Below, in pieces: positions 6,499-49,718 of a DNA stretch of 64,000 bases. Below the pieces are notes generated by a model, which was not told the DNA's origin, did not search any database, and worked only from the letters and a program-made list of their open reading frames with translations. A program made the translations under genes and the position numbers. The stretch is taken from NCBI RefSeq assembly GCF_013284245.2, contig NZ_CP085876.1, positions 1,791,501-1,855,500 of the forward strand, read 5' to 3'. This DNA comes from Brevibacillus sp. DP1.3A (GTDB lineage Bacteria > Bacillota > Bacilli > Brevibacillales > Brevibacillaceae). Positions within the stretch are counted from its first letter, which is position 1. Each line of letters starts with the position of its first letter.

Positions 6499-7425
6499 AT
6501 GGGACAGGTAGAGCGGGAAAGAGGTCTGAAAAAAGGCACGATCCTGCAAAAAGCTTATCGGATCAAAAAGACCATTTCCACAAGTGAGCTGTCGAATGTG
6601 TATGTGGTCTACTATATGAAAAGCAAGCGGACACTCATTCTCAAAGAGTTTTTCCCTCAAGCATTGGCGATGCGAGATTTGGATCACGTGAAGGTCATTT
6701 GTCGCAGACCATCGTTACAAACCAAATTCGACATGCTGCTAGACGGCTTTTGGCAAGAGGCGTCCCTACACAAAGAACTAAATCATGAAAATATCATCGG
6801 ATACATCGACCATTTTGCCGAAAATGGTACAGGGTATCTCGTCGTGGACTATTGCAAAGGGAAGACGCTGGATGCGTATGTATTAGCCCAAGCCGAGCTT
6901 GATCTGGGAGCATTTTTGCATCAGACGGTACTTCCGGTATTTGACGGATTAGACTATTTGCACAAAAAAGGCATCATTCATCGCGATATCAAGCCCAAAA
7001 ACATCTTGGTCACCGAAGCTGGTCAGCCTGTGCTGATCGATTTTGGCTCCGCGATCTATTTCGTGAGTGATGAACCCAAGCCGATTGTGACGACAGAAGG
7101 ATATTCACCGCTTGAGTTTTACTCGGGTCAATCCAAGCAAGGAGTCATCTCGGATATTTACAGCCTGGCTGCCACGCTGTATTACTGTCTAACCAAAGAG
7201 CGTCCCGTTGATGTGGCGGCAAGAGTGATTGAGGATCGCTTACCATCGATCCGAACGATCAACCCTGATGTTCCGCTGCTGCTCGCGAATGTCATTATGT
7301 GGGGATTGGCCGTCGACTCGAAAAAAAGATGCCCCACACTCAAGCTGTTTGCGACAGCGATTCGTGCAGAGCATCTGATTTGGAAAGGAAAGGCTCGCTT
7401 CTCTCTTAGGAAGCTTCCTCACTAG
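6499..7425 (+). CDS. Soluble Ser/Thr protein kinase (Hanks type)
   Basis: A 308-residue eukaryotic-like kinase without any membrane helix, so it acts in the cytosol. Visible motifs are ILKEFFP (ATP-anchoring Lys near residue 48), HRDIKPKN (catalytic Asp near 163), DFGSA (Mg2+-binding Asp near 181), EGYSPLEF and SDIYSLAATLYY. The glycine-rich loop is degenerate: ISTSELSNVY replaces GxGxxGxVY. ATG 6499 has GGGGAGG 7 nt upstream. Its 3' end overlaps the VWA gene on the other strand by 20 bp. With two FHA proteins, a PP2C phosphatase and the sheath gene nearby, it most likely phosphorylates a trigger protein of the contractile system, like PpkA in the type VI threonine-phosphorylation pathway. 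The target is unknown. Confidence 0.9.
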   Translation: MGQVERERGLKKGTILQKAYRIKKTISTSELSNVYVVYYMKSKRTLILKEFFPQALAMRDLDHVKVICRRPSLQTKFDMLLDGFWQEASLHKELNHENIIGYIDHFAENGTGYLVVDYCKGKTLDAYVLAQAELDLGAFLHQTVLPVFDGLDYLHKKGIIHRDIKPKNILVTEAGQPVLIDFGSAIYFVSDEPKPIVTTEGYSPLEFYSGQSKQGVISDIYSLAATLYYCLTKERPVDVAARVIEDRLPSIRTINPDVPLLLANVIMWGLAVDSKKRCPTLKLFATAIRAEHLIWKGKARFSLRKLPH

Positions 7426-9445
7426 ATGATTTCTTAAAGCGAATTTCGATCTCGGTCATCCGATCCTCGAAGGTCACATACACCTTGTCGTTATATTGGA
7501 GGACGAGCTTTTTATGTCGGGGCATGGTTTCCTTGCCCCGCTCAACTGTGCAGTGACTATTATTGACCAGAAGCAGCGTCTGATTTTTTCCTGGCTGGAA
7601 GTAAATCTTTTGCGCTTCGGGCAAATGCTCATTCACATCCAAACTGGTGAACAGCTCCTGCAACGTGATCCGTTGTTTTTTGCCAAAGGAGGCGAGCGGC
7701 CAAAACTTGACAGGGATGTCGTGGCCGGTTGCCGTGTGCAGGAAATACCCCTCCAGACGACCCACAAAGGCAGGCTTGGGACGTGTAAGCAGGTAAACAC
7801 CGTAGCCGATCGCAGCTACGAGCAACACAATCATGCCGATGGTAATGTAGCGATCCCATACCGAGTGCACGGTAATGACGAGCGGGCCTGTGACGCTTGC
7901 TCCTTCCGCATCCGTGGCGGTAATGGTGATTTCTGATGTGCCACTTTTCTCTGGTGACAGCTTCAAAGCCGCGTCTTGAATCGTAGCGACAAATCGTTCG
8001 TCGGGATCAGTAGTGACGATGGTATAGGTCAGCTTGTCGTTATTGGCGTCCGTGAAGAACGAACCCAAATCAATAGCTTGCTCGCCGTTTTCCTTCTCGA
8101 TCGTCAAGGTATTGACCGAGGCAGCAACTGGCGCGATATTCGTGATATCAAAAACGCTCGAAGCCGTCTCGCGATAAAAGTCCGGGCCGTTCATAAAGAT
8201 TTTCCACTCGTACTTGCCCGTGTGAGGGAAGACGTAGTCGACCGTAAAGCTATCACCAAGATTCTTCATCGGGATCTTTTCTTCTTTTTTCCCCACAAGA
8301 TCGTTTACGATCAGTTCTGCTTGCATGGATGCGTACACATCCTTGTCTTCCAGTCGTTTGCCACCCTCCAGATGGTGGAGATAGGTAGTAAACGCAGCAG
8401 GATTCCCCTTAATAACAGGTTCAGGCTTGACCTCTACACCAGCCATCAAGCTGTAATTCCCCAGTAAATTGATTTTCACCAAATCCCCGGGTTTGCCTCT
8501 AAATTTAACGAGATAGTTTCCCTTCTTCGGCTTTTCTATTTTCATCAGCGAGTATTTTTTAGATTTCATAAAATGCACATTTTGCGATTGATAGTACACT
8601 TGCGATTCCAGCAGCGGATTGTTGGACAACAGGATGATGTTCGCTTCCTGCATGCTGGAGTTAGGAATGGTCACGGTCACTTCCTGTAAGCCTCCGGTAG
8701 CTGTCATGGCTGCCACCGACACGAGCTGCGATTGAATATGCTTGGCAAAAATCTGATTGAAGATTTCAGGCAGATCATCCGTGCTTTGTGTGACAAAGGA
8801 AGTTCCGCCTGTTGCCTCTGCGATTTTTTTCAATTGATCCTTTTGGACGGAGCCATCGCTATTGAGGCCAATCGTATAGATCGGATAGCCTTGCGCTTTT
8901 GCTTTCGAGATAGCTGTCTCTGCGTCCTTGTTGGATGCTGCCACACTCCTGCCACCCGCATTTTGCCGCAAATCTGTTCCCCCGTCTGAGAGAAGGATCA
9001 AAAATGGCTTGCGAGCCGGGTCCTTTGCTTTTTCAATCATCTCTGCCCCTCTGCGCAAACCGAGCCCCAAATCCGAATACCCAGAGTAACGCAACCCTTG
9101 AATGGTTCGCTTGAGCTGTTCCCGATTTCTTGCTTCTGCCATGCTCGCTGGAGGCTGAGCCTGTACAATCCGATCATTATAAGCGACAAAGCCAATGCGG
9201 GTACGCGTGGCTTCGCTCATATCAATGAACATACTCATGACCTCAGCGGCTGTTTTGCCAGGGTCTGTTTTGTTCATGGAATTACTCGTATCAATGACAA
9301 AGACCGCGTCTACTCCCGCATCTGCTGTTCCATTTGCCCCCGCAGTAAGAGGGGCGGACAAGAAGAGCATGGGAAGGAGCAGTCCAATGACCACCAGTCG
9401 AAAAAGTGGCGGCAGAGAGAGGGTTGACTGACGATTTTTGTACAT
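7406..9445 (-). CDS. Membrane-anchored VWA protein with FHA-like tail
   Basis: The 679 residues show a signal peptide or N-terminal anchor (about 10-38, ending SAPLTAGANG) and a von Willebrand A domain (about 42-240) with the metal site DTSNS, the second site around GYSDLG and the later LLSDGGTD. Ig/cadherin-like beta regions follow (about 250-525). One transmembrane helix lies at about 531-555, and the 122-residue cytosolic tail reads like an FHA fold (LLLVNNSHCTVER, DKVYVTFEDRMTEIEI). The start has AAAGGTGA just upstream. The topology places the VWA domain outside and a possible phosphothreonine reader inside. It is transcribed divergently from the sheath gene and convergently with the kinase. 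I infer an envelope sensor or anchor for the injection system; direct evidence is lacking. Confidence 0.85.
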   Translation of the reverse strand: MYKNRQSTLSLPPLFRLVVIGLLLPMLFLSAPLTAGANGTADAGVDAVFVIDTSNSMNKTDPGKTAAEVMSMFIDMSEATRTRIGFVAYNDRIVQAQPPASMAEARNREQLKRTIQGLRYSGYSDLGLGLRRGAEMIEKAKDPARKPFLILLSDGGTDLRQNAGGRSVAASNKDAETAISKAKAQGYPIYTIGLNSDGSVQKDQLKKIAEATGGTSFVTQSTDDLPEIFNQIFAKHIQSQLVSVAAMTATGGLQEVTVTIPNSSMQEANIILLSNNPLLESQVYYQSQNVHFMKSKKYSLMKIEKPKKGNYLVKFRGKPGDLVKINLLGNYSLMAGVEVKPEPVIKGNPAAFTTYLHHLEGGKRLEDKDVYASMQAELIVNDLVGKKEEKIPMKNLGDSFTVDYVFPHTGKYEWKIFMNGPDFYRETASSVFDITNIAPVAASVNTLTIEKENGEQAIDLGSFFTDANNDKLTYTIVTTDPDERFVATIQDAALKLSPEKSGTSEITITATDAEGASVTGPLVITVHSVWDRYITIGMIVLLVAAIGYGVYLLTRPKPAFVGRLEGYFLHTATGHDIPVKFWPLASFGKKQRITLQELFTSLDVNEHLPEAQKIYFQPGKNQTLLLVNNSHCTVERGKETMPRHKKLVLQYNDKVYVTFEDRMTEIEIRFKKSSSEEAS

Positions 9446-9995: not shown

Positions 9996-12164
9996 ATGGA
10001 CATTATTAACCAGACCAACCGAACCATGCTGTTCGAAGAGATCAATCCGGAAAAATTGGACCTGATCACCATTGTTGGAGATGTAAAAGGCATCGACAGT
10101 CTCAGCGACGACAAGATCAAGGAGATCAACGAGCATCTCCTCGTTCGCAGCTTCGATGAATTTTTGGACAAGTTTTCCCCAAGTGTGTATTCGTTCTACA
10201 ATGCAGCGAACCAAAAAGTGATGTACACCTTGAAAAAGCCTGACGGAATTGCAGAGGATGCGATTTCCGAGATCAAGATCGATCAGAGCAACGACTTCTT
10301 GAAAATGCTGTTTACCCTGATTGATACGAAGCGTAGCCAAGGTATCACCAACGTGGATTTCAAATTCGAGAATTTGCTCGATATGATTTCCCCGAAAAAA
10401 GTGATGGATGACATCCGTCAGGTGCGCAAAGAGATTCACTACTTGTACGGTCATTACGAAAAGCTCGATGATGGCGATCCGAAGAAGCTCGATCTCGGTG
10501 ACAAGCTGAACACGATGTTCGAGGATGCGAGCAAAAACTACAACAACGTCATGGCGATGCTGCCGCTGGCGATTGAAGATATCAAAACACGACTGCTCTT
10601 GGGCGGCGCACAAGAGGAGAATCAATCCGAAGCGATTCAGATCGGGATGCTGACGATTGGGGAAGACGGAGAACTGAAGATCATCGAGGCACCGAAGAGT
10701 GACAGCCGCGAGCTGATGGTTCTCGATGAAAACAGTGGAAACGGACTGATGAACGTTTTCGAAGAGGATTACGAGTCGATCACAGAGACGCCATCCTCCT
10801 ATGTAAAAGATCTCGTGGTGCGCACCTTCTGCCCGCTGCCGACGGTACATACCGAAGTCAACATTGAGACAGAAGTACAGAACTACAATACGTATCTGGA
10901 GTTTTACAAAAACGCCAAGGACGACTTCGTAAAAACGGTGAAGCCTTTGGTCGAGAAAATTTTGGGCGTGAAGATGTTCTTCGATCAGTACGTGACCAAG
11001 AACAAAGGCATGCAGCCAGCTATGGTGATCACGAATACGAAGCTCGACATGCTCGTGAAGTCCAGCAACATTCCACGTCTGGAGACTTATCTGAACACGG
11101 TCAACGCGAAAAACGACTTCACGGATACGATCTGGTTCGGAATCGTGCCATCGGTTGATATGGATTCCGCTGGAAAAGCACAAGTGACTCGCGAGCGTTT
11201 CCGTGGGAACGAAAAAGTCGTCAAGCAGGACGGCAATACGATGGAATCGCTCACCATGCTGCTTCAAGTCGTCAAGGACTTCAAGGTACAAGTGTTCTTC
11301 AGCTTCAGTACAGGTGAAGAGACGACCTTCAACAGCATGGCGACAGCGGGTATTGATAAATACATCGACAAGTGCGGAATCCTGGTGCGCAAAGAATTCA
11401 GCGAATTCGCTATCCCGTGTATTCCGAACTTCACGATTATTCCGAAAGATAAATCAGGAGTTGTCATCGACAGCAGAATGCTGCAAACCGAAGACGGCGT
11501 GAAGCTGTCCCAGGAAAAAGAAGACATCCTGAAGCTGTGGATCGAGGGTGTTTACGTCGGTGCCAGCTATGTAGCTGCTGGTGTCGTGGCAGCATACCAG
11601 TGTCCAGAGTACTTGCGCGAAACATTCAAAGTGGTTAGCCGCGAATATCCGGGTGTGCGCTTTGACATCGAAGCAGGTGAAAATGGACTGCGCGCTATCA
11701 CCACAATGGCCAAAGAAATCTCTGGCTTCACCAACAACATCAAAGATTCCATCAACCGCAAAAACTTTGGATTCGTCTTCTCTTCGGAAAATGCACAAAT
11801 CCAAGGCAAAGATATCAAGCGCATCACGGTGTACAAGGCACGCAGCCTCGCCATGGCAGAGGACGGCTTTGATTCCATCTACAAAACACTGGTCAGCACC
11901 TATATCGAGCGGATTCTCCGCTTCCAGACGGGTGATTTCAAACACGATAACATCGTGAAGTTCTTCAGTAACAATCCGAGCAGCCAAAAAAGCAAATGGC
12001 TGGGCACACGCGGCTTCGTGAACTCCATCATTCACGATGGTGATGACATGAGCTACATCATCGATGATAAGAGCAATCTGTGCCATATCGATCTGGTGTT
12101 CAACGGCAATGTGAAAAACCTGGAGGTCACCATCACCAAAGGAACGACTCCGGTCAAAGCATAG
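9996..12164 (+). CDS. Contractile sheath protein (TssB/TssC-like, single chain)
   Basis: This 722-residue protein reads as a contractile-tail sheath subunit. The C-terminal two thirds carry sheath-like features: LWIEGVYVGASYVAAGVVAAYQ, KNFGFVFSSENAQIQGKD (the archaeal/T6SS-type domain around the ATPase-free core) and a last segment HIDLVFNGNVKNLEVTITKG, like the C-terminal strand that sheath subunits exchange. The first 180 residues resemble the small sheath subunit TssB (SFDEFLDKFSPSVYSFYN, FENLLDMISPKKVMDDIRQVRKEI). Total length is close to TssB plus TssC. I chose ATG 9996 with AAAGGGG 4-9 nt upstream; the frame extends to 9885 without a ribosome site. The tube gene lies 150 bp downstream. 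The sheath role is inferred from pattern and context, since no profile search was possible. Confidence 0.75.
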   Translation: MDIINQTNRTMLFEEINPEKLDLITIVGDVKGIDSLSDDKIKEINEHLLVRSFDEFLDKFSPSVYSFYNAANQKVMYTLKKPDGIAEDAISEIKIDQSNDFLKMLFTLIDTKRSQGITNVDFKFENLLDMISPKKVMDDIRQVRKEIHYLYGHYEKLDDGDPKKLDLGDKLNTMFEDASKNYNNVMAMLPLAIEDIKTRLLLGGAQEENQSEAIQIGMLTIGEDGELKIIEAPKSDSRELMVLDENSGNGLMNVFEEDYESITETPSSYVKDLVVRTFCPLPTVHTEVNIETEVQNYNTYLEFYKNAKDDFVKTVKPLVEKILGVKMFFDQYVTKNKGMQPAMVITNTKLDMLVKSSNIPRLETYLNTVNAKNDFTDTIWFGIVPSVDMDSAGKAQVTRERFRGNEKVVKQDGNTMESLTMLLQVVKDFKVQVFFSFSTGEETTFNSMATAGIDKYIDKCGILVRKEFSEFAIPCIPNFTIIPKDKSGVVIDSRMLQTEDGVKLSQEKEDILKLWIEGVYVGASYVAAGVVAAYQCPEYLRETFKVVSREYPGVRFDIEAGENGLRAITTMAKEISGFTNNIKDSINRKNFGFVFSSENAQIQGKDIKRITVYKARSLAMAEDGFDSIYKTLVSTYIERILRFQTGDFKHDNIVKFFSNNPSSQKSKWLGTRGFVNSIIHDGDDMSYIIDDKSNLCHIDLVFNGNVKNLEVTITKGTTPVKA

Positions 12165-12314: not shown

Positions 12315-12740
12315 ATGGGTTTTCGACTCAAAGTAGAAGGTTCTGAAACAATTGAGCTGGGCATGGACAACATTCAGACAGTAAAGTACGACACTGACAC
12401 GCCAGACGATTCCAACGCGCGCTCCACAGATGTGGGTGCAACACTGAAACTGACTGGCAAAATCATCACTGCAACAGATGGTGACAGTGCGGATGACACC
12501 ATGAAGCTGGCTCTCTGGTCTTTGGTACCAGCAGAAAAAGCGGATTGCTACCGCAAAGTAACATTGGAAGTAATCGCTGCTGATCAAGTGATCCGCAAAA
12601 TCTACTTCCCGAACGCATTCGTAGTAGATTACAACGAGAGCTTCGGTGATACCGAGGGTGTAGGAACATTCAGCATCTTCATCAAGCAAAAGAAAGACAA
12701 AACCGAACTCACCAAAATCGAAGGCGGCTACGCTGTTTAG
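12315..12740 (+). CDS. Tail tube protein (Hcp-like)
   Basis: A 141-residue beta-rich protein (MGFRLKVEGSETIELGMDN... TLKLTGKI... VTLEVIAADQVIRKIYFPNAFVVDYNESFGDTEGVGTFSIFIKQKK) with the size and strand pattern of the Hcp/phage tail-tube fold. FPNAFVVDYNESF followed by GTFSIFI resembles the last strands of tube subunits, which stack as hexamer rings inside the sheath. I chose ATG 12315 because AGGAGG sits 8 nt upstream; an in-frame start at 12189 would add 42 basic residues absent from tube proteins, but cannot be excluded. It directly follows the sheath gene, the usual order. A strong hairpin follows it, which fits a need for many more copies than the next gene products. Confidence 0.75.
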   Translation: MGFRLKVEGSETIELGMDNIQTVKYDTDTPDDSNARSTDVGATLKLTGKIITATDGDSADDTMKLALWSLVPAEKADCYRKVTLEVIAADQVIRKIYFPNAFVVDYNESFGDTEGVGTFSIFIKQKKDKTELTKIEGGYAV

Positions 12741-12842: not shown

Positions 12843-13295
12843 ATGAAAAATTATTACGAGATTCTGGGGCTAACCAAACAAGCTTCCACGAATGACATCA
12901 AAAAAGCATACCGTCAACTGGCAAAGCAGCATCATCCGGATGTCAATGCCGGGAGCAGTGAGTCAGAGCGAATCTTTAAAGAAATTACCGAGGCCTATCA
13001 GACATTGCAGGACTCAGCCTTGCGCGAGGCGTACGACGCGCGCTACGAAGCTTTTCAGCAAAAGAAACAACAACAGACCAGCCATACAAGCAGCACAAAA
13101 CAAGGACAAAGCAAACAGCAAGCACAGTCTGCAGCGGGTGTGAACTTCGAAGATTTAGGGAGCACCTTTGAACGATTTTTTGGTTTTCATCCGAAGACAG
13201 GCGAGATTAATCCAAACACCATGAAATCCGAAAAGAAAAATCCACTGGATACGACGGATATGTTTGAACAGTTTTTCCGCACGAAGAAAAAATAA
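12843..13295 (+). CDS. J-domain co-chaperone
   Basis: The 150-residue protein starts with a complete J domain (residues 1-70: [22 protein letters not shown], the HPD motif in QHHPDVNAG, then [13 protein letters not shown]). It lacks the Gly/Phe-rich, zinc-finger and C-terminal substrate domains of DnaJ, so it is a small specialised type III J protein. After a Gln/Ser-rich linker it ends with a distinct motif ([18 protein letters not shown] ... TDMFEQFF). J proteins stimulate Hsp70 ATPases, and a large Hsp70/actin-fold ATPase is encoded at 19528 in the same locus. I infer that the pair works on sheath or spike proteins. GAGGGTG lies 5 nt before the ATG. Confidence 0.9.
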
Positions 13296-13591: not shown

Positions 13592-13627
13592 AAGAGCATT
13601 TTGAGGTAGTTGATTGGGGGGAAAGAT

Positions 13628-14182
13628 GTGGCGAAGAAAAAAGGGTACCAAAAGTCCATCAGAGTGAAGCTCATAGAGCTGCTGATTTCCATTCTTGTGA
13701 TTAGTGCACTCATTTATGTCTTTGGTTATACGGACAGCAACGCTCTGAAAATTTTTACAGGAATTGCCTTCGGACTCTTTTTGTTCGGGGTCATTATCGT
13801 CAGATTCGGAAGCCCCGACGAACCGGAGCCAAAGAAAGAGGATGGCGTCACCAAACTGGTTCTATTAGATGAAGAGGGAGAGAGCGTGAAGGAGTGGTTC
13901 ATCCAAGGGGAGACATCCCTTTTGATCGGCAAAAGCTCCGCGCAAAACGAGGTCGACATCGACTTGGCGGACGCGGAATACGCTGCCTTGATCAGCAAGC
14001 AGCATGCGGTTCTGAATCAAGCGTCTGGGGACTGGTTCATCGAGGATATTCATTCCAAAAACGGCACAGGCATCAAGCAGCCGAACAAACGCGACAAGAG
14101 CAAGCTGGAGATTGAACAGCCGCATAAAGTTAAGGCTGGCGACGTCATTTACATAGCTAATACCCGCTTATTGCTGAAATAA
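13628..14182 (+). CDS. Membrane FHA-domain protein
   Basis: The 184-residue protein has two hydrophobic helices near the N terminus (LIELLISILVISALIYVFGY and IFTGIAFGLFLFGVIIVRF), a short acidic linker, and a C-terminal FHA domain (about 80-184). The FHA motifs are plain: LLIGKSSAQNEVDIDL, ISKQHAVL (phosphothreonine-contacting Ser and His), WFIEDIHSKNGTGI and KAGDVIYIANTRLLL. FHA domains bind phosphothreonine peptides, so this protein can recruit targets of the kinase at 6499 to the membrane. GTG 13628 is preferred because GGGGGGAAA sits just upstream. A longer frame starts at TTG 13610. Confidence 0.88.
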   Translation: MAKKKGYQKSIRVKLIELLISILVISALIYVFGYTDSNALKIFTGIAFGLFLFGVIIVRFGSPDEPEPKKEDGVTKLVLLDEEGESVKEWFIQGETSLLIGKSSAQNEVDIDLADAEYAALISKQHAVLNQASGDWFIEDIHSKNGTGIKQPNKRDKSKLEIEQPHKVKAGDVIYIANTRLLLK

Positions 14183-14251
14183 CAACGGGGTAAACATCGC
14201 TTTTACACATATATATCGTCCTTGCACGGAACGAAACGGGGGAGCAGAAGA

Positions 14252-14782
14252 ATGAGTTTGACAAGATGCGCGAATGGTCACATGTTTAGCACCAGAAAAC
14301 ACGGAAGCATCTGCCCTTATTGCAGTATGGTCGTTGAGCCTGGGGCGAAACCGGACAACAAAGCACCAGCGAGAGTGGCAGACGACGATAAGACGATGCC
14401 GTACCTGGGGGAAACAGAAGGAATTGAGCCTGTTACCGGCTGGCTGGTATGTATTGAGGGGCCACAACAAGGTCAAGATTACCGCATTATGGCGGAGAAG
14501 AACTTCATCGGTCGCGCAGAGGATATGCATATCCGAATCGTCGGAGACAACACGATCTCTCGCCGCAATCATGCGGTGATTGTCTACGATCCGAAAAAAC
14601 GCAACTTTTACTTGCTCCCGGGTGATGCGTCCGGGCTTGCCTATCATAACAATGAAGCGGTGTACACACCAGTCGAGCTCACTGCGTACGATGTGCTCCA
14701 GCTCGGAAAGAGTACCTTTATTTTCATCCCGCTGTGCGGTGTTCACTTCGAGTGGGACAACTCCAACAAAGGCAAGGAATGA
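14252..14782 (+). CDS. Zinc-ribbon plus FHA-domain protein
   Basis: The 176-residue soluble protein begins with a zinc-ribbon-like segment (RCANGHMFSTRKHGSICPYC, ligands C, H, C, C) and carries an FHA domain at about 85-170 (FIGRAEDMHIRI, ISRRNHAVIVY, FYLLPGDASGLAY, ELTAYDVLQLGKSTFIFI). FHA proteins read phosphothreonine. In type VI systems the FHA protein Fha1 is the phospho-target that switches assembly on, and this gene is a candidate for that role. ATG 14252 has GGGGGAG 8 nt upstream. Its stop overlaps the start of the phosphatase gene (ATGATGA), which indicates translational coupling. Confidence 0.87.
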   Translation: MSLTRCANGHMFSTRKHGSICPYCSMVVEPGAKPDNKAPARVADDDKTMPYLGETEGIEPVTGWLVCIEGPQQGQDYRIMAEKNFIGRAEDMHIRIVGDNTISRRNHAVIVYDPKKRNFYLLPGDASGLAYHNNEAVYTPVELTAYDVLQLGKSTFIFIPLCGVHFEWDNSNKGKE

Positions 14783-15627
14783 TGAGCATGTTTCAACAGG
14801 GCGCAATCCCGTATCTGGTCGTCCTTGGCGTGATCATTGCCATTACTCTTTTGTTTCGTCTACGTGCAGCTTTGATCCGGCAAGAAAAGAATCCTGTCAT
14901 CCAGATCGGAAATGGACAGACGATCGGTAGACGAGAAGAGCAGGATGATTACTTTTCTACGGCAACATCGTCTCATGGGACGATTGCGGTCTTGGCTGAT
15001 GGAATCAGTGGACTGGCTAACGGCAGACTTGCTTCAACGCTTGCCGTGACTACTTTTATCCGTGAGTTTACAAAGCTGGACAATCCGAAGCATATGTCCC
15101 TCTTCTTTTCACGTGCAGCTTCCCTTGCGAATTCGGAGATTTTGCAGACACTGAGAGGAAGTCGGGGTGGGACAACGCTGGTAGCTGGCGTAATCGTCGA
15201 GGACAAGCTGTACTGGGGAGCGGTTGGGGACAGTATCATTACCGTTTTCCGGAACGGAGAATTCATCCCGATCAATCAAAAAGACATTTATGAGTCGGTG
15301 CTGGAGGCGCGTTTTCTGTCCGGTGAGATTACGAAGGACGAGGCGTTGGAGCATCCGCAGAAAAAACAGCTGATCAACTACTTGGGCTACGAGAGTTTTC
15401 AAAATATCGAAATTGGCCGTGAGCCGTTTCCGCTTGAGAAGGGAGACAAGGTCATTCTCTGTAGTGACGGCGTCTACGATACGTTAACCGAGATGGAGCT
15501 GGAGCAGATTTTGTTCCAAAAAATCGCTGCCCATGACGCGGCTGACCAAATCATTGAAGCGGTGGAAAGCAAGCAAAAAGCCAATCAGGACAACGCAACC
15601 ATTCTCATCCTGGAAAAAGGCTGGTAA
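14779..15627 (+). CDS. PP2C-type Ser/Thr phosphatase, membrane anchored
   Basis: The 282 residues show one N-terminal membrane helix (PYLVVLGVIIAITLLFRL) and a PP2C catalytic domain with intact metal-binding aspartates: GRREEQDDYF, VLADGISG, GGTTL, WGAVGDS, LCSDGVYD and QDNATILIL. It would remove phosphate from the kinase targets, parallel to PppA of the type VI threonine-phosphorylation pathway, and the anchor keeps it at the membrane with the FHA protein. The ATG at 14779 overlaps the stop codon of the FHA gene. The next gene encodes a catalytically dead relative. Confidence 0.92.
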   Translation: MMSMFQQGAIPYLVVLGVIIAITLLFRLRAALIRQEKNPVIQIGNGQTIGRREEQDDYFSTATSSHGTIAVLADGISGLANGRLASTLAVTTFIREFTKLDNPKHMSLFFSRAASLANSEILQTLRGSRGGTTLVAGVIVEDKLYWGAVGDSIITVFRNGEFIPINQKDIYESVLEARFLSGEITKDEALEHPQKKQLINYLGYESFQNIEIGREPFPLEKGDKVILCSDGVYDTLTEMELEQILFQKIAAHDAADQIIEAVESKQKANQDNATILILEKGW

Positions 15628-15647: not shown

Positions 15648-17516
15648 ATGAGAAAGGACAACAGTGAATTCATTACCGGGTTTCTATCCGAATCAGGCAG
15701 CTTCGTTCGCAACAAGGATTACTTTGCCTTCGCCGAGCTGGATGATATCGCGTGCTGGGTAATCGCCCGCGGATTAGACAACGATCAGGAAGTAGAAAGT
15801 GCAGAGTTGGCGGCCAAAAGCGTTCTGGGCTACTTTTTGCAGAAGCCGTCCATTTCGCGTTATCGTATTCGCCGCTATTTGCAGGAGGCCCATCGTGTCC
15901 TGCAAGCCGAGAGCCATCGCGTTAGACTAAAGGCGAGCTTGACTGTAATCGTAACGGACTATGCCAGAGTGAGGTACGGGGTCGCTGGTAACACCCGGCT
16001 GTATCAGTTTCGCAATGGCCGACTGCAATGGCAGAGCAAGGATCAGAGTCTCGCCCAACAGATGGTGGATGGGGAGGAAATCGCAGAGGACACACTTGAT
16101 CAGCACGAGGAGCGCCATAATCTCTTGAGCTATTTGGGGACACCCAATGAATTTCGTCCGTTTGTCTCCAAGAAGCTCCCACTCTATGACGGTGATGTTT
16201 TTCTGCTTGCCACCCCTGGTCTGTGGGAGAAGGTAAATCCGGCCGAGATGCAGGACGGGCTTCAAGAGGCGAAAGATCCTGAAGCCTGGATCGATACGTT
16301 GGAAGACGTGCTTTTGAGCAAACAAGAGCATGTCGTTCAAAACTACACGGTAGCCGCTATTTTTGCGAACAAAATTTTCAAGACAGATCCGCAAAAAAAA
16401 TGGCGGATTATCAAACGGGTGGCACTCATCCTTCTCGTGCTTGCCTTGGCTGGAGGCGGGGCTCTGCTGTTCAAGATGAAGGAAGCGGAGCGCATCGCGG
16501 ATGCTGCGACAGGGATGTTTGAGCATGAAACCGCCGGAGACGCTTTCATTGCGGAGAGCGATTATCCGAAGGCACTCAAGGCATACAGCGATGCCAGAAA
16601 TGCTGCAAATATCGTCAAAAACAAAATTCAGGCCACTCTCTTGGCGAAAAAAATCCGTATTACACAGTTGATCGTGGATGGAGATACGGCTGTAAAAGAT
16701 GAACAGTATGCCAAAGCATTGGAGAAGTACGACAAGGCGCTCAAGGAAATGAAAGGGCGCGAAGATTTTAACGAACCGGAGATTTTGGAGAAGAAAGAAA
16801 AGACACAATCGTATGTGCTCGTCATGCAATGGAAAAAGGAAGGCGATCTCTTGTTTGAGGCGCAAGATTACGCTGGTGCAGAAGCCTATTACCAAAAGGC
16901 GCGCAAGCTGGCGCTGGAAACGTCCTTTGTAACAGGAGAAAAGGAGCTTCGCACCAAGCTGGACGAGGTAGCTTCCAAAAAGACTGGTATCGATAAGGAA
17001 AAGAAGACTCTCGATGGCGACAAGCTGGAGAAGCAAGGCGATGAGAGCTATGCGGCGCAAGACTTCGAGGGAGCGATCCAATCGTATACGCTGGCGCAGG
17101 AAATTTATCAGGAGATTGGCGTGCTGGAGAAAGTTTTGGCGGTGGAACGCAAGGTGACAAAGGCAGAGGAGAAGCTGAATCCTCCTGCTGCTCCGCCTTC
17201 GGCAGGTGCGCCAGCAGGCCAGCCACCTGTGCAAGGGACGAGTGCTGCGAGTCAACCTCAGGCAGTTCAGGTGAATCAAACGGCACCGGTTAACCAGACG
17301 GCTCCGATTAACCCAACTACCCCGGTGAACCAGACAGTCCCAGGCAATCCGGTGGCTCCAACGTACCAGCCAGTTCCGGCGCCCCAAGTAGCGCCGACCA
17401 ATCAAGCAGTTCCGCCAGCCGCGACAGCTCCGGCGACTCAGTCAGTTCAGCCACCGCAAGCTAATCCACCAGCTACAGCCAATCCGACACAGGAGGAGGC
17501 AGCGAAAACGCCATGA
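15648..17516 (+). CDS. Membrane PP2C pseudophosphatase with TPR-like and Pro-rich tail
   Basis: The 622-residue protein has three parts. Residues 1-245 have a PP2C layout (LKASLTVIVTDYARVRYGVAGNTRLYQF), but key acidic residues are lost: DG becomes GLDND, the SDG motif becomes ATPGLWE, and the final DN motif becomes QN. A transmembrane helix at about 255-275 follows. The outer or second half has repeated helical pairs of TPR type (YPKALKAYSDARNAA, YAKALEKYDKAL, YAGAEAYYQKARKLA, FEGAIQSYTLAQEIY). A tail of about 110 residues has VNQTAPVNQTAP-type repeats rich in Pro, Ala and Gln, typical of cell-wall-spanning segments. It could be a phosphoprotein scaffold and envelope anchor. The order with the true phosphatase suggests duplication. 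Confidence 0.8.
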   Translation: MRKDNSEFITGFLSESGSFVRNKDYFAFAELDDIACWVIARGLDNDQEVESAELAAKSVLGYFLQKPSISRYRIRRYLQEAHRVLQAESHRVRLKASLTVIVTDYARVRYGVAGNTRLYQFRNGRLQWQSKDQSLAQQMVDGEEIAEDTLDQHEERHNLLSYLGTPNEFRPFVSKKLPLYDGDVFLLATPGLWEKVNPAEMQDGLQEAKDPEAWIDTLEDVLLSKQEHVVQNYTVAAIFANKIFKTDPQKKWRIIKRVALILLVLALAGGGALLFKMKEAERIADAATGMFEHETAGDAFIAESDYPKALKAYSDARNAANIVKNKIQATLLAKKIRITQLIVDGDTAVKDEQYAKALEKYDKALKEMKGREDFNEPEILEKKEKTQSYVLVMQWKKEGDLLFEAQDYAGAEAYYQKARKLALETSFVTGEKELRTKLDEVASKKTGIDKEKKTLDGDKLEKQGDESYAAQDFEGAIQSYTLAQEIYQEIGVLEKVLAVERKVTKAEEKLNPPAAPPSAGAPAGQPPVQGTSAASQPQAVQVNQTAPVNQTAPINPTTPVNQTVPGNPVAPTYQPVPAPQVAPTNQAVPPAATAPATQSVQPPQANPPATANPTQEEAAKTP

Positions 17517-18790
17517 AAGAGATCGTACTGGATCGTTTGAACAAAATGGAGGAGCTGGAGCAGCGCAGATTGCTCAAGCAGATCATGAACGGTGTCTTCC
17601 TCAACCTAGTCGAGTATCAGGAGGAGATGCAGAAGAAGCTGGAGGAGCGTGTTTTTACCGAGATTGAGGACAAGGAAGATAAGCATGACATCTACGTGAC
17701 CCTCTGTCATCGCGATGACTTTGACCCGATTCACGAGTATTTGTACCCGATGATCCCTGGCGATGAGGAAAAGAAGATATGTGATCGCAAAGAGTTGGCG
17801 GTCAAGCTCAGCAACCAGGAAGAAGCGGTCATGATGACGATCTTTTTAGAGTGTGAGTACGACAAGATACAGGCGCTGATGATGAGCAAGCGAACCTTCA
17901 AGGGTCGGCTGAATACGGGAGGCAATCACTATCCAATCGAAGTGCGCCTCCAACAAAGCCGTGTGTATATGGATGAGCTGGAAAAGCTGTACAACATGTT
18001 TCAAAAGAACGGGATGCCGTGGAAAACGGTGAATCACCCTTACGCTAGCAAGTTTTTCGATGTCATTCTGGTTGCCTGTGAGGGCACGTTTACAGAAGAC
18101 GAAGAGATACTGGAAATGTCGATTACCCTCGATGAGTGGGAGCCTTACAAAAAGCTGGACGTCATTCCGCTATGGAACATCGAGCGTCTGGCTTTAAAAA
18201 ACATCGGCTTTCCCGTACCTGCCATTGACCGGGTGAACTTCGAGCATGTCCTGTCGTTACGCAAGACAGGCAGTGAGCACGGTTATTTGGTGGATGGAGA
18301 TGAGGAACTGATTCGCTACATCAAGCGGTCACCGGAAGAGCTGACAATAGTCTCACCTCAGGAGAAGTCGGGAGTTTGGAACGTATGTAAAATTACACAG
18401 CCTGTCACGACCCGTATCGGAAGACTCAATTACGAATTAGTGTCCAATCGACGCAAAAACAGCTTTGTTGGGAGCTATGCCCGGAAGCAGGCGATGACCG
18501 TACGAGCCAAAGGAGAGATTATCCGAATCGTCCATTCCTTTGAAGCCGCTGAGCAGCTGGAGCTAGTGAATGTTGAGATTCGGGACAAAAACAATCGTCC
18601 TCCCGCGACGTACGGCTTGAATCCGTTCATTAGCGATAACGTTCGTGTAGAAAACGACAAGAAGATCATGGCTCTCGGCTTTCGGAGACGCGGGGCGAAC
18701 AGCTTTATTCTCCAAGATAGGATGAGCTTCCTCGTCTCCGAGGTTCAGATGTATTTTCCGGAATACAAGTGTGAAGGAGAATGGGCTTGA
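17513..18790 (+). CDS. Unknown 425-residue protein, candidate baseplate component
   Basis: I do not recognise this family with certainty. The N-terminal 55 residues are charged helix (EQRRLLKQIMNGVFLNLVEY), and the rest is a mixed alpha/beta soluble protein without signal peptide or membrane helix. Segments such as KKLDVIPLWNIERLALKNIGFPVPA and a C-terminal beta-rich region (AIDRVNFEHVL ... MYFPEYKCEGEW) recall wedge proteins in general, but this is weak. Its start overlaps the previous stop (ATGA) and its end overlaps the next gene by 10 bp, so it is translated with the machine genes. Its place after the tube and before the spike fits a baseplate wedge (TssF-like) or an assembly factor. Confidence 0.75.
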   Translation: MKEIVLDRLNKMEELEQRRLLKQIMNGVFLNLVEYQEEMQKKLEERVFTEIEDKEDKHDIYVTLCHRDDFDPIHEYLYPMIPGDEEKKICDRKELAVKLSNQEEAVMMTIFLECEYDKIQALMMSKRTFKGRLNTGGNHYPIEVRLQQSRVYMDELEKLYNMFQKNGMPWKTVNHPYASKFFDVILVACEGTFTEDEEILEMSITLDEWEPYKKLDVIPLWNIERLALKNIGFPVPAIDRVNFEHVLSLRKTGSEHGYLVDGDEELIRYIKRSPEELTIVSPQEKSGVWNVCKITQPVTTRIGRLNYELVSNRRKNSFVGSYARKQAMTVRAKGEIIRIVHSFEAAEQLELVNVEIRDKNNRPPATYGLNPFISDNVRVENDKKIMALGFRRRGANSFILQDRMSFLVSEVQMYFPEYKCEGEWA

Positions 18791-19476
18791 ATTACATCTG
18801 GGATTTGGTTATTCGTGCAAAACGCGCCGGGATCGCCAATAAAGACATCCAATTCAAAGCGGCCAAAGTGTATTCGCCCTACATGGAGCTGAGTCATGAG
18901 GCCATCAACGCCAAAACGGTGGACAAGACAGTAGAAGTGAATCCGTACTACCGCTTCGACGATATTTTCCGTGATCTTTTTGACGCCAATTACTCGGAAG
19001 ATGCAGAGCTTCGGCATACCTTGTTTGATATCATCATCCATTTGCTAGCCGAGATCGATCTGTCGCAGGGGATGAACAAGCGTGAATACCACATCCGCTT
19101 TGTATTGCGCGACTTGGAAGCGGGTCTATTCGGCAGTCGGGTACAGGAAAATATCCGGCTTTTTACCAAAGAGGAGCGAGAGATTATCGCAGGCAATATT
19201 TTGCGCTTGTATGAGACCGGCGAAGCAGTGTACCTGCTCAAGGATACGATGCGCAAAATTTTCTCTCACTCTACCATTTACGCCAATTGCGAAGAAAAAG
19301 ATGAGCTACTGATTTACGTCGGGCAGTCGGAGAGTGAAACCGCACATGCCAAGCTCGCTTTAATCAAGGATATTTTTCTGCCGGTTCGGTTCCATACAGA
19401 GATTTATTGGCGAAATCATTTCGGCATTTTGGATGTCGAGGAAACGATGCAAATCGACAGTGTTGCACTGTACTAA
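18781..19476 (+). CDS. Unknown 231-residue protein, candidate baseplate wedge
   Basis: The family is not recognised with certainty. It is a soluble protein with an N-terminal stretch YSPYMELSHEAINAK and a C-terminal part IKDIFLPVRFHTEIYWRNHFGILDVEETMQ, loosely like the C-terminal part of phage tail protein I/TssG-type wedge subunits. ATG 18781 overlaps the upstream stop region by 10 bp, with AAGGAG very close. TTG 18787 has better spacing to that site and may be the real start. It is cotranscribed with the 425-residue protein and followed by the ATPase gene. The wedge role is inference from position and weak pattern. Confidence 0.75.
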   Translation: MGLNYIWDLVIRAKRAGIANKDIQFKAAKVYSPYMELSHEAINAKTVDKTVEVNPYYRFDDIFRDLFDANYSEDAELRHTLFDIIIHLLAEIDLSQGMNKREYHIRFVLRDLEAGLFGSRVQENIRLFTKEEREIIAGNILRLYETGEAVYLLKDTMRKIFSHSTIYANCEEKDELLIYVGQSESETAHAKLALIKDIFLPVRFHTEIYWRNHFGILDVEETMQIDSVALY

Positions 19477-19527: not shown

Positions 19528-22200
19528 ATGACTACCTATTCATATAAGCTTCATCTCCAAAAAGGCAGCGGGGATGGAAATCAACGCAATCATCCAGACG
19601 AAGCGACCTATACACGGGACGAGCTGATGGAGATGACGACCTTTCAGCTACGCAATATTTGTTACAAGGAAAAGCTAGTCGGCTCTGTCGTGAACAATCT
19701 CGATCGGGAGGGACTGCTGCATACGATTCTGCGTTTTCGCGGCGCAGAAGAAAACCTCCTGATTGAGCGTGCTGTTCCAGGGGGTGTTGAACGCCTCGAA
19801 GCCGTACTCCACAAATATTTAAACACACCGATGCCAGGTGTAGATGTGATCAAAATTCCAGCGAAGATGTGCTTGTACACGGGTCTCGCCATTGACAGGC
19901 TGGACAACTATCGCGTCGAATCCTCCCAGGGCTTGTCCGAATCCAATGTGCTTTTGGTGAATGACCATATGGAGCTATGCGGCATTCTGCATCTGAACAA
20001 AGACAAAGGCGATAGGAGAGCCGGGCATTTTACGCTGCACGCCCACCAAGATGCTCAGTTGAGAAAAACCGTCAATCAAAACTACAGCCTGCTCTTTTTC
20101 CGCAAGCAGGATTCGGAGTATTTGTACAAGGCGTATCATCAGGACCATCCGTTGCCGCCTGTCAATCTCCACTACTACAAAGTACCGGTGACTGACCTCG
20201 AGATCAGGGAATTGGAAGAAACAGATGCCGTTCTCGCGATTGATTTTGGTACCTCCTCGACGACAGCGGGTGCTTTTCTCGACCATCAGTATGTCAGCTC
20301 CCCTTCTAGCAACGACTTGTTGAATGGACGCATTCGCTTGAATGCGATCAATTACGTCTCTTTCCCAGATACCACGCAAAAAAACGAGGAATGGATCGAG
20401 GTGCTGCCGACGGCTGTCAGTGTGGCGGATTGCTCCTCTCCAACCGATGTTCGCTTTCACATCGGTTATGAAGCACTGCGGCACATGAAAAAGAACGGAT
20501 ACAGCACGAACGCAACAGTGTTTCAAGGCATCAAGCGCTGGGTGAACAGCTATCACAAGATCGAAGAGGTCATGGACAGCCAAGGGAATACCGCGACTGT
20601 GAAACGAAGTGACATCCTGCGCCAATACCTTCTTCACGTCATTCAAATGGCTGAGCATCAATTCAAATGCCGCTTTCGTCATCTGCATATCACAAGTCCG
20701 GTCAAGCTGAAAACGCAGTTTCTTGAGATGTTCACCGAGATATTACCTGAGTATCGCATCGAATCAGAGCACGCCCTCGATGAAGGAATGGCCGTCCTGT
20801 TTAACACGATTGCGGATCAAATTGACAAAAACAGCTTTCTGGACGGTGAGACATATCAAGCGCTCGTCATCGACTGCGGCGGAGGAACGACGGACCTGTC
20901 ATCCTGCCATTTTCGGATCGAGGACGGACATATCTCCTACCGGATCGATATCGATACAACCTATGAAAACGGCGACACCAATTTTGGCGGCAACAACATT
21001 ACGTATCGCATCATGCAATTTATGAAAATCGTCTTTGCGGACTATTACGGAAAAGGGCGGCAAGTGACCGACATCGACCAGATCATCGACATCCCCGGAT
21101 CGGAAATATTCCGGTACGTGGATGAATACGGTGTCGACTCCATCTATGAACGCTTCGAGGCGAGATATCGGGAAGCTGAGGCGATTTTGCCGACTCGCTA
21201 CAAGGAGTACGAAAACAAGAGCCGGGACGAGTATCAGCGTGTCCGCAACAATTTTCACTTTTTGTGGGACCTCGCTGACCACATGAAAAAAGAGTTTTTC
21301 CGCCAGACCGGAATCTTGCGTAATCGCTTCACATCCGATACGGAAAATCGTCAAGAGCCTGATCTAAAGCTGACGGCAGTCGAGCGATGGGTGTTGTCGA
21401 TACGGGAGGATGGTCACTTCCGGGATGTGTTTGATTTTCCTGATGTCGTCTTCAACGCCAAAGAGATCAATCACCTGATTAAGGCGGATATTTACGAGAT
21501 TTTGCGCGACTTCTTGGACGATTTTTACCAACAGGGAAGGCTGGCTGACTTCTCGATCATCAAGCTGACCGGGCAGTCGTGCCGGATTGATGTTTTCCGT
21601 GAAGCGCTCAAAGAGTTTGTCCCTGGACGCAGTATCGAGTTCCGGCAAAAGTCGGAGGATGCGGGCAAGGTGCCAGACTTGAAGCTGTCTTGCTTACGTG
21701 GAGCACTGCGCTATCAAAGTGCCAAAAAGGCAGGCTTCATTGAAGCGAACATTACGAATCATGCGCCGATCGTCCCGTATTCCGTGACGGCCTTCACTCA
21801 TAACAAGCAAGAGAGAGTGCTTATTCACAGTCAGGAAAAGCTGAGTCTCGTGCATGGCTCTATCTCACGTCCCTACGGCGTGAGCGAGGTTGAATTTTAT
21901 CTCAAGGAAAATGACGGTCAGCTGCGCCAACGGTACCTGTACATGGATGATCCTGCTCAATACAAAACCGTGTTGTATGAGGACATCGCGAGCAAGTACG
22001 GTACACATATCCCGCAGGATGAGACTGACTCGATTCAAAATGGCGAGTCGAAATACTTCGTTTTTGCGAGCGGTAGCGAGTGGGGATTCCATGTCGTGCC
22101 AGTAGCTCGTCTGAATGAACAGCTTGCTTTGGGGAAAAAGGTATTCTTTGCTTTTGAGAGTGACTTGTCCGAGCTGGATTTCTTTGACGGGATGAAATGA
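19528..22200 (+). CDS. Large Hsp70/actin-fold ATPase with SAP-like N terminus
   Basis: The 890-residue cytosolic protein carries the three signatures of the actin/Hsp70 ATPase fold: phosphate-1 AIDFGTSSTT (about 239), phosphate-2 VIDCGGGTTDLSS (about 449) and an adenosine motif KLTGQSCRIDVF (about 680). A long insertion between phosphate-2 and adenosine motifs contains charged helices. Residues 30-75 look like a SAP or helix-loop-helix segment (YTRDELMEMTTFQLRNICYKEKL). It is far larger than MreB or FtsA and lacks an Hsp70 substrate domain. GAGGAG lies 8 nt before the ATG. With the J protein at 12843 it forms a probable chaperone pair. No ClpV is seen, so it may recycle or assemble the sheath. 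Confidence 0.8.
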   Translation: MTTYSYKLHLQKGSGDGNQRNHPDEATYTRDELMEMTTFQLRNICYKEKLVGSVVNNLDREGLLHTILRFRGAEENLLIERAVPGGVERLEAVLHKYLNTPMPGVDVIKIPAKMCLYTGLAIDRLDNYRVESSQGLSESNVLLVNDHMELCGILHLNKDKGDRRAGHFTLHAHQDAQLRKTVNQNYSLLFFRKQDSEYLYKAYHQDHPLPPVNLHYYKVPVTDLEIRELEETDAVLAIDFGTSSTTAGAFLDHQYVSSPSSNDLLNGRIRLNAINYVSFPDTTQKNEEWIEVLPTAVSVADCSSPTDVRFHIGYEALRHMKKNGYSTNATVFQGIKRWVNSYHKIEEVMDSQGNTATVKRSDILRQYLLHVIQMAEHQFKCRFRHLHITSPVKLKTQFLEMFTEILPEYRIESEHALDEGMAVLFNTIADQIDKNSFLDGETYQALVIDCGGGTTDLSSCHFRIEDGHISYRIDIDTTYENGDTNFGGNNITYRIMQFMKIVFADYYGKGRQVTDIDQIIDIPGSEIFRYVDEYGVDSIYERFEARYREAEAILPTRYKEYENKSRDEYQRVRNNFHFLWDLADHMKKEFFRQTGILRNRFTSDTENRQEPDLKLTAVERWVLSIREDGHFRDVFDFPDVVFNAKEINHLIKADIYEILRDFLDDFYQQGRLADFSIIKLTGQSCRIDVFREALKEFVPGRSIEFRQKSEDAGKVPDLKLSCLRGALRYQSAKKAGFIEANITNHAPIVPYSVTAFTHNKQERVLIHSQEKLSLVHGSISRPYGVSEVEFYLKENDGQLRQRYLYMDDPAQYKTVLYEDIASKYGTHIPQDETDSIQNGESKYFVFASGSEWGFHVVPVARLNEQLALGKKVFFAFESDLSELDFFDGMK

Positions 22201-22244: not shown

Positions 22245-23024
22245 GTGTTTTCCCATCTCTATCCCAATTTTCATAAAGGGCGAATTCTCAAGCGAGAGAT
22301 GCTTGAGAATCTGCGTGATTACCCGCGGCACTTTGTAGATTTATACTTTCAGGATTATACAGACGGCATTATTTCCGGGATGGATGTAATGATAGGCGAA
22401 GGGCACCTCACTGTCGGCAGAGGGATCGTCAAGCATCAAGGACGCATTTACTTGTTCGACCGCGAAGAGCGTGTCCCTTATGAGGCCATAGGTATGGAGA
22501 CGGTGCTCAAGATTCGCTTTCAAGAGGAGACTTCGCTGACCGACTATTACGTTTACGAGACGTCGTATGTTCTCGATCAGGAGATAGAGTCACGCCCGGA
22601 TGAAAGGGAGTTGGGGCGCTTCAAGCTCAAGCAAGGGGCAAGGCTTCGCGGGGATTATCAGGATTTAGCCGATATGGCGACCGAATTCAATACGTGGAAT
22701 ATCGTGCATGTCGAACATGCCGGGAGAAACGAGCCAACACTTGCTCCCTACATCCTGCGGTATTTTGCGAATGAAATGCTGAAAACGGTCACCAATCACC
22801 CGTATGATCTCGCCTTTGCCATGCAGTGCTTGAATGCGGACAGAGTAGAGCGGGGGCTCATTCTTCATTATGTAGGCAACAGACTGGGGACTGGTTACCG
22901 CGAGTACACGAATCTACAGATTCTCAAATACCTCGCACGCATATTGGATGACGCCAAGAGTGGCGGAAAGTCCTCAAAAACGGAGTGGAAAACAGGCGGG
23001 CGTCAGCGGGTTATTGTTGATTAA
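22245..23024 (+). CDS. Unknown 259-residue protein, TssK/fibre-adaptor candidate
   Basis: No family is assigned with certainty. The first 80 residues resemble tail-fibre or receptor-binding adaptor starts: HLYPNFHKGRILKREMLENL then DGIISGMDVMIGEGHLTVGRG and IVKHQGRIYLF, a beta pattern found in phage fibre N termini and in the shell domain of TssK. The second half is helical and ends with a disordered basic tail. GTG 22245 has GGAAGGGGG 7 nt upstream. It lies between the ATPase and the spike genes. I infer a link between baseplate and another part (membrane or fibre). Databases may carry misleading names for such proteins. Confidence 0.7.
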   Translation: MFSHLYPNFHKGRILKREMLENLRDYPRHFVDLYFQDYTDGIISGMDVMIGEGHLTVGRGIVKHQGRIYLFDREERVPYEAIGMETVLKIRFQEETSLTDYYVYETSYVLDQEIESRPDERELGRFKLKQGARLRGDYQDLADMATEFNTWNIVHVEHAGRNEPTLAPYILRYFANEMLKTVTNHPYDLAFAMQCLNADRVERGLILHYVGNRLGTGYREYTNLQILKYLARILDDAKSGGKSSKTEWKTGGRQRVIVD

Positions 23025-23038
23025 CGAGAGGATGGTGA

Positions 23039-23707
23039 ATGGAAATGGCGCGCATGGATGAAAGCATTATCGGCATGTTGAATGAGCTTTCCGGTGAGGA
23101 TGCACAGCCAGCAGCAATACGTTTTGGTCCGAAGGGCAAAAACCGACTGGATGTAGTGAACAAATCATTGATTACAGTCGGTGAAGAGAGAATTCCCATG
23201 GAGGACAAGCGCGTCCTCGACGATCTCGTACAGATTAGACTCCCGAAGACATTTTCCATCATGAGTCCAGAAGTAGCTGCTCTGAAGTATCCATCGGAAC
23301 GTAGGCCTTCACTGATTTATACGAACGAAACAGCGTCAATTAACATGGCTTTTACCTATACCGAGAGCAAGCTGACCGATACTCCTGCACAGCTGAAGGC
23401 CTTCATGGATGTCATGAAGCAGGTTTTGCGGAGGACACAGCCGCTCGCTCGTTGGCAGGAGGAAGGAATACGTGAGATCGCGGGGAACAGCGTCGGATTT
23501 TTCGAGTTTGTTGCGCCCGCATTGGATACGGACATTTACAACCTGATCAGCTTTGTATCCCTACAGGGACGCGCTCTTCTCTGCACGTTCAATTGCACGG
23601 AGCAGGAGCTGTCAGACTGGAAGCCAGTAGGCTGGGGAATCATGGATTCCTTGTCGCTGGTATCTAACAACTCGGATGAAAATGGGAAGGGAGAAGGGAA
23701 AATATGA
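23039..23707 (+). CDS. DcrB/DUF1795-like protein (EagR-type chaperone candidate)
   Basis: This 222-residue soluble protein resembles the DcrB/DUF1795 fold: LVQIRLPKTFSIMSPEVAALKYPS, NMAFTYTESKL, IAGNSVGFFEFVAPALDTDIYNLISFVSLQGRALLCTFNC and a last tryptophan-containing strand and helix. In type VI systems DUF1795 proteins (EagR) are chaperones that shield the hydrophobic segments of Rhs and PAAR effectors. A paralogue is encoded at 42500 in the second spike module, also next to VgrG genes. ATG 23039 is used; in-frame ATGs at 23045 and 23054 are possible. The end overlaps the next vgrG start by 4 bp (ATGA). Chaperone function is an inference. Confidence 0.7.
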   Translation: MEMARMDESIIGMLNELSGEDAQPAAIRFGPKGKNRLDVVNKSLITVGEERIPMEDKRVLDDLVQIRLPKTFSIMSPEVAALKYPSERRPSLIYTNETASINMAFTYTESKLTDTPAQLKAFMDVMKQVLRRTQPLARWQEEGIREIAGNSVGFFEFVAPALDTDIYNLISFVSLQGRALLCTFNCTEQELSDWKPVGWGIMDSLSLVSNNSDENGKGEGKI

Positions 23708-26346: not shown

Positions 26347-26894
26347 ATTATTTCATCTTGTCACAGGACGAGCGAATCGCGAGTGCGGTAGAGCCAACTA
26401 ACGTTTTTGACGTCATCCGGCAGGAGTGGCTGACGCCAGATTATCAGGAAGAGCTTGACGAGGCGATCATCCAGTTCGACATCAAGCAAAAGAAAGAGAA
26501 CGACTACCTGGATTTTCTCGACAGACCGATCCCGCTCTATTCCAACCGCTTAAAGACAATCATCCACAAGTTCGCGCCGAAGCTGTTCGTCAAATCCGTC
26601 GTGCTCGTAGACAGGGAGCGGATCAAACAGGATTTGTACTGGATGATGATTCTGCCGCGTGTGAACTGTTTGTCAGAGCAAAGCGAGTTTCACAGGGACG
26701 GCTCACTCAAAAGGCTGGTTCTCGATCCAGAAAAGATTGGGCGTCATACGATTTTTCAAATCGAAGGGATTCGTGAACCGTATATCATCATCGATTTGCG
26801 GCTGGCGGAAGCTTTGCTGCGCAGGGACTTTTTCGGTATCCGCTTGAAAAAAGCAGACCAAGCAGGGAGGAGAATGAGTCATGCCCATGATTGA
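26343..26894 (+). CDS. Imm11/DUF1629-like protein
   Basis: The 183-residue soluble protein has the layout of the DUF1629/Imm11 family: YFILSQDERI at the start, a central LYWMMILPRVNCLS, then KIGRHTIFQIEGIREPYIIIDLRLAEALLRRDFFGIRL. ATG 26343 overlaps the stop codon of the pentapeptide gene (ATGA), and the frame upstream (to 26322) is an overlap artefact. The same pentapeptide-DUF1629 pair recurs at 40863-42503. It may be an immunity protein for the pentapeptide protein or a loading adaptor; the fixed pairing supports direct partnership. It overlaps the PAAR-like gene by 14 bp. Confidence 0.75.
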   Translation: MNYFILSQDERIASAVEPTNVFDVIRQEWLTPDYQEELDEAIIQFDIKQKKENDYLDFLDRPIPLYSNRLKTIIHKFAPKLFVKSVVLVDRERIKQDLYWMMILPRVNCLSEQSEFHRDGSLKRLVLDPEKIGRHTIFQIEGIREPYIIIDLRLAEALLRRDFFGIRLKKADQAGRRMSHAHD

Positions 26895-27303: not shown

Positions 27304-27316
27304 AGAGGGGGATTGT

Positions 27317-49689: not shown

Positions 49690-49718
49690 GGGCTTGCACG
49701 AGAGAGGAGGGAACGAGG

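Follow-up and report, generated by a model that had tools for sequence, protein, structure and literature searches.

The T6SS is held to be a property of diderm bacteria. A 722-aa protein (here S) encoded in the genome of the monoderm Brevibacillus sp. DP1.3A raises the question of whether a Gram-positive bacterium possesses a contractile sheath of this type, and whether that sheath combines in one chain what TssB and TssC (VipA/VipB) do as two proteins, as the initial annotation proposed. The S gene was analyzed together with its surroundings in a stretch of 64,000 nucleotides (the window; NCBI contig NZ_CP085876.1, positions 1,791,501–1,855,500), to which all coordinates below refer.

S Is an Intact and Conserved Single-Chain Protein

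The S gene (9996–12164, plus strand) starts with an ATG at 9996 that is preceded by a Shine-Dalgarno-like AAAGGGG, has an intact frame and stops at 12164. The genome containing the window is 6.66 Mb long; among the relatives listed, Brevibacillus fortis and B. formosus are nearest, with a protein that is 99% identical. A protein search retrieved homologues of full or nearly full length, with 78–99% identity, from 80 loci in Brevibacillus, Paenibacillus, Aneurinibacillus, Lysinibacillus, Sporosarcina, Solibacillus, Cohnella and Clostridium. A distant subfamily (22–28% identity) is found in other Bacillota, and in an even sample across the phylum 13 genomes out of 398 carry S. At all 80 loci, as well as in the distant subfamily, S is one chain of ca. 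710–760 aa. The description of S as a 722-residue protein with no small separate sheath gene beside it was therefore correct: the next gene encodes a 141-aa tube, and this order is fixed over the loci. In genome G442, two S genes lie in tandem on contig 113 (locus L122, G442:C113), and several genomes from the same order have more than one sheath gene.

When S and its family were scanned with HMMs against Pfam, NCBIfam, PHROGs and PDB sequences, no meaningful match emerged. A match to NS1 (E 0.002–0.009) was dismissed, as it covers a stretch of 36–46 residues only. The phage sheath model PF04984 did not match S, though it did recognize three phage sheaths of the ordinary kind that are encoded at other places in this genome. 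No relatives of S were found by scans of viral contigs or by tblastn against phages and plasmids, and PADLOC detected nothing relevant. An AlphaFold model of S, built from an alignment of 66 close homologues, had a pLDDT of 36.6 and was unusable.

The N-Terminal Part of S Resembles TssB in Profile Comparisons

S was compared with reference profiles of 14 TssB and 16 TssC proteins, mostly originating from annotated T6SS plasmids. In the profile alignment, residues 26–177 of S (10071–10526, plus strand) correspond to TssB columns 39–150 and span nearly all of TssB. As can be seen from the aligned segments, ILGDVKG of S is matched by VLGDFSG of TssB and SFDEFLEKFSPKV by NFNDVMKSMAPRL, while in the close subfamily NVDFKFENLLDMISPKKVMDDIRQVRK is matched by NVDLSFESMDDFEPEAVARQVPPLRE. 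When columns were shuffled 150 times, the S-TssB score was reached once for the whole family, never for the close subfamily and 32 times for the distant one. The top two of 143 profile pairs were those of TssB with the N-terminus of S1 (z 7.2) and with the whole-family S N-terminus (z 3.1); the distant subfamily alone gave an insignificant z of 0.7. With hhalign, P values against TssB were 0.0024 for S1 and 0.039 for S_all, while the true tube-Hcp pair had 0.04 and the other pairs at least 0.13; earlier hhalign runs of S with small T6SS profiles had produced nothing significant. The loci supplied 30 real families for a further test, in which the S family scored highest against TssB (23.2), followed by a family with 16.8. 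These tests were devised after inspection of the sequence and share profiles, and hence are not independent of each other; taken jointly, they make a chance resemblance unlikely and fall short of proof. The proposed TssB likeness of the first ca. 180 residues is thus supported by profile statistics and by the cluster context, and by no library model.

A separate TssB co-occurring with S, chosen beforehand as evidence that would speak against a merged chain, was looked for in 24 S-carrying genomes and not found: PF05591 (TssB) had no match in any of the 24, nor in the genome of the window, which also lacks a match to PF05943 (TssC). A two-protein sheath of TssB plus TssC was thus not found with these models.

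The C-Terminal Part of S Is Weakly Similar to Phage Sheaths

The remainder of S had been thought to recall TssC. Scores of S against TssC did not rise above the background. The relationship between TssC and phage sheaths is accepted, and this pair, used as a positive control, was also undetected (z 0.05); since the method is blind to the control, the failed match is no evidence against TssC likeness. Higher scores were obtained with a profile of 19 Bacillota phage sheaths, whose C-terminal domain (columns 240–438) aligned with residues 516–712 of S (11541–12131, plus strand). For most versions of the S C-terminus, z lay between 1.3 and 2.3, and the distant subfamily reached 3.3 over its last 250 residues; in the test with 30 real families S was highest against the phage sheath (18.5–20.6, next best 18.5). 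The close subfamily alone aligned with phage sheaths in a different register, and so this likeness is suggestive only.

These scores bear on the possibility that S is a sheath of the phage/eCIS type, in which nothing has been merged and the TssB likeness of the N-terminus arose by convergence or chance. Sheaths of phages and eCIS are likewise single chains (PMC9230969), and the last 200 residues of S are nearer to phage sheaths than to TssC. We consider such an origin unlikely nevertheless, given that PF04984 misses S and finds the three phage sheaths of the same genome, that the N-terminus of S scores z 0.7 against phage sheaths and 3–7 against TssB, that the tube encoded next to S is nearest to Bacteroidota Hcp, and that neither gp25 nor Baseplate_J was found by Pfam, which remote homologues might escape, among the scanned cluster genes. 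What stands of the proposed TssB-TssC merger is a probable single-chain sheath with a TssB-like start. The act of merging is unsupported, the TssC half being insignificant and the model of S unusable. As sheaths of phages and eCIS consist of one chain too, S may equally well descend from an ancestor that was never split as from a fusion.

An Hcp-Type Tail Tube Is Encoded Directly Downstream of S

The gene that follows S encodes the 141-aa protein T (12315–12740, plus strand), whose ATG at 12315 is preceded by the Shine-Dalgarno sequence AAGGAGG. PF17642 (TssD, Hcp) matches six of seven T family members, with a best E of 3.2e-5, T itself being under the Pfam cut-off; the best PDB sequence for T is Hcp1 (6bdc, E 0.006). 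The AlphaFold model of T is of modest confidence (pLDDT 56, pTM 0.53). In a Foldseek search with this model, 6bdc ranked first (E 4e-5), and others among the matches listed were tail-tube-type proteins of Hcp, eCIS, phage and gene-transfer-agent origin; VIA-align reached Z values up to 9.3, almost all matches again being proteins of the tail-tube type. T is found directly downstream of S in 80 of 80 loci. T is thus supported as an Hcp-type tube; by implication S, which always precedes it, is the natural candidate for the sheath.

One may argue that S is some other large cytosolic part of the machine, e.g., a baseplate protein or the client of a chaperone, as could be suggested by the lack of library matches and the low pLDDT of its model. 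This appears very improbable to us, since S has the right size and directly precedes the tube in every locus, gives the top TssB and phage sheath scores among the families tested, and no plausible sheath is present among the other core proteins of the cluster.

The Cluster Encodes Putative Control, Chaperone-Like and Tip Proteins

The order of genes at the 80 loci is essentially invariant: kinase, VWA protein (on the opposite strand), S, T, DnaJ, two FHA proteins, PP2C, PP2C-TM-TPR, F425, G231, Hsp70-like ATPase and B259. The exceptions listed are loci with a shorter end or with a missing match to the VWA protein or the kinase. In the window, all of these genes except that of the VWA protein are on the plus strand. 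The Ser/Thr protein kinase (6499–7425; PF00069, E 5e-33) is present at 72 of the 80 loci, and the minus-strand gene (7406–9445; 56 loci of 80) codes for a membrane protein with VWA (PF00092) and Ig-like domains and two TM helices predicted from hydropathy. The presumed cytoplasmic tail of this protein is perhaps FHA-like by eye; the protein is a candidate surface sensor.

Downstream of T, a J-domain protein (DnaJ; 12843–13295; PF00226, E 6e-25; 79/80 loci) is followed by an FHA protein with two TM helices predicted from hydropathy (13610–14182; PF00498), a second FHA protein (14222–14782; PF00498), a PP2C phosphatase with an N-terminal TM segment seen in hydropathy (14734–15627; PF13672) and a protein in which a PP2C-like part (NF033484, E 2e-16, under its cut-off), a TM segment (258–276) and TPR are joined (15648–17516). 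Two conserved core proteins, each found at 78 of 80 loci, come next. F425 (17513–18790), whose distant members adjoin distant S, is a candidate baseplate or assembly part, and G231 (18781–19476) is possibly TssG-like (z 3.85 against TssG columns 41–142; hhalign P 0.36). H890 (19528–22200) is a divergent Hsp70/actin-like ATPase with invariant DFGTS and DCGGGTTD motifs, and one ATPase of this type is present in each of 24 S-carrying genomes out of 24. Its matches to DnaK are weak and PDB gave no match at E 0.1, and for this reason we treat a chaperone role of H890 as a hypothesis. The conserved protein B259 (22245–23024) was seen at 45 of 80 loci, many of which end nearby, and also in distant clusters.

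Further downstream, on the plus strand, are genes for the tip of the putative machine. V474 (23704–25128) is a VgrG-like spike with GPD hub, OB fold and DUF2345 (PF05954, PF04717 and PF10106; hhalign to VgrG 95.7%), and a DUF4280 protein (26881–27303; PF14107, E 7e-36) is a PAAR-like tip; a spike and a tip are thus both encoded. A 2000-aa hub-Rhs fusion (27260–33262) with N-terminal Phage_GPD (PF05954), DUF6531 (PF20148) and 16 RHS repeats is a likely cargo or effector. Small ORFs 3′ of the hub-Rhs gene could be immunity genes. An Imm11-like protein is encoded at 26322–26894; a relative of it is located directly upstream of S in distant clusters, so that it may be a part of the system rather than an immunity protein. 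Clusters of the distant subfamily contain S, tube, VgrG-like protein, F425, G231, ATPase and B259, interrupted in one case by extra genes, and have upstream a cysteine-rich protein that is DUF4280-like by eye. The window also holds NRPS and chorismate-binding/AMP-binding genes (46729–58793), probably a siderophore-type cluster.

The tail-like parts (tube, hub) raise the idea of a degenerate, functionless prophage tail remnant. Such a remnant would be under relaxed selection and show frequent frameshifts, whereas S is 78–99% identical over 722 aa between genera and its gene order is fixed; moreover, searches of phages, viral contigs and plasmids turned up no relative, and the cluster has kinase and phosphatase control genes. 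We therefore reject this explanation.

Several T6SS components were looked for as well. All matches of the genome to the ClpV (TssH) model TIGR03345 are under its cut-off, and none is in the cluster. Pfam revealed no DotU, IcmF or TssJ (membrane complex TssJ/L/M) among the scanned cluster genes. It gave no hit to the baseplate proteins TssE, F, G or K either, of which TssG may have a counterpart in G231, a likeness seen in the z value and unconfirmed by hhalign. Although the way of working would be T6SS-like, the two-chain sheath, ClpV and an in-cluster membrane complex are not found, and we do not classify the system as a T6SS.

Discussion

With a tube next door, VgrG-like and PAAR-like genes nearby and no other sheath candidate in the cluster, S probably forms the contractile sheath in a contractile injection system that resembles the T6SS and occurs in monoderm Bacillota. 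We infer a sheath fold, contraction, control of firing and the involvement of a chaperone. Each sheath subunit would be one chain, with the N-terminal ca. 180 residues in the role of TssB and the C-terminal part in that of TssC, and subunits would polymerize around the adjacent Hcp/TssD-like tube T. The tube would bear V474 as its VgrG-like hub and the DUF4280 protein as its PAAR-like tip. On contraction, these would be pushed outward along with the tube and a toxin, for example the hub-Rhs protein. The time of firing is probably set by the kinase/FHA/PP2C set and the surface VWA protein. The kinase, FHA and PP2C proteins have a parallel in some T6SS, which are under threonine-phosphorylation control and whose kinase PpkA bears a VWA domain; there, kinase and VWA are parts of one protein, whereas here they are neighbours. 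Since the cluster has no ClpV and the ATPase occurs in every carrier checked, H890 together with DnaJ may be the likeliest assembly/disassembly factors.

As in T6SS, the sheath gene has its place beside Hcp, the N-terminal part aligns with TssB, and the 722 aa of S are close to the sum of TssB and TssC (ca. 168 and 486 profile columns). In contrast to T6SS, S is one chain with no match to TssB or TssC models and an insignificant TssC half, its cluster has no TssJ/L/M found by Pfam and no recognizable ClpV, and its hosts are monoderm. With phage and eCIS sheaths (PF04984) and haloarchaeal Cis2 (PMC11566945), S shares the single chain and, weakly, the C-terminal part, but it differs in the lack of a PF04984 match, the TssB-like N-terminus and the absence of relatives found in phages. 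The closest relatives of T are Hcp/TssD proteins of the Bacteroidota T6SS(iii) (PF17642; PDB 6bdc), a system that differs in the number of sheath chains and in the chaperone. The cluster may represent a separate T6SS-like lineage of monoderm Bacillota, with an unsplit TssB-TssC chain and the Hsp70-like ATPase and its DnaJ partner acting as ClpV, a proposal that we put forward tentatively and with some doubt.

An "unknown phage-like translocation system" of Gram-positives was predicted in 2016 and again in 2021 from DUF4280 and VgrG (Phage_GPD) genes of Firmicutes that have no known T6SS or eCIS genes nearby; the passages concerned leave sheath, tube and apparatus unnamed, whereas the S cluster has both a tube and a candidate sheath (PMC5349215, PMC8651086). 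As far as these passages describe it, the S system is probably the apparatus behind this prediction, with the DUF4280 and Phage_GPD genes as its tip end. No prior description of the apparatus was found in the open-access literature, which omits most subscription papers and preprints. The S cluster looks like an undescribed injection machine, of a kind previously only suspected in Gram-positives.

Tip proteins of Firmicutes have been without an apparatus since 2016, and the S cluster, by supplying a candidate sheath, a tube and control genes, makes the question testable. Since every carrier checked has the ATPase, sheaths may be handled by a route other than ClpV. Finally, a single-chain TssB-like sheath would bear on how the two-protein sheath of T6SS originated from the single-chain sheaths of phages.
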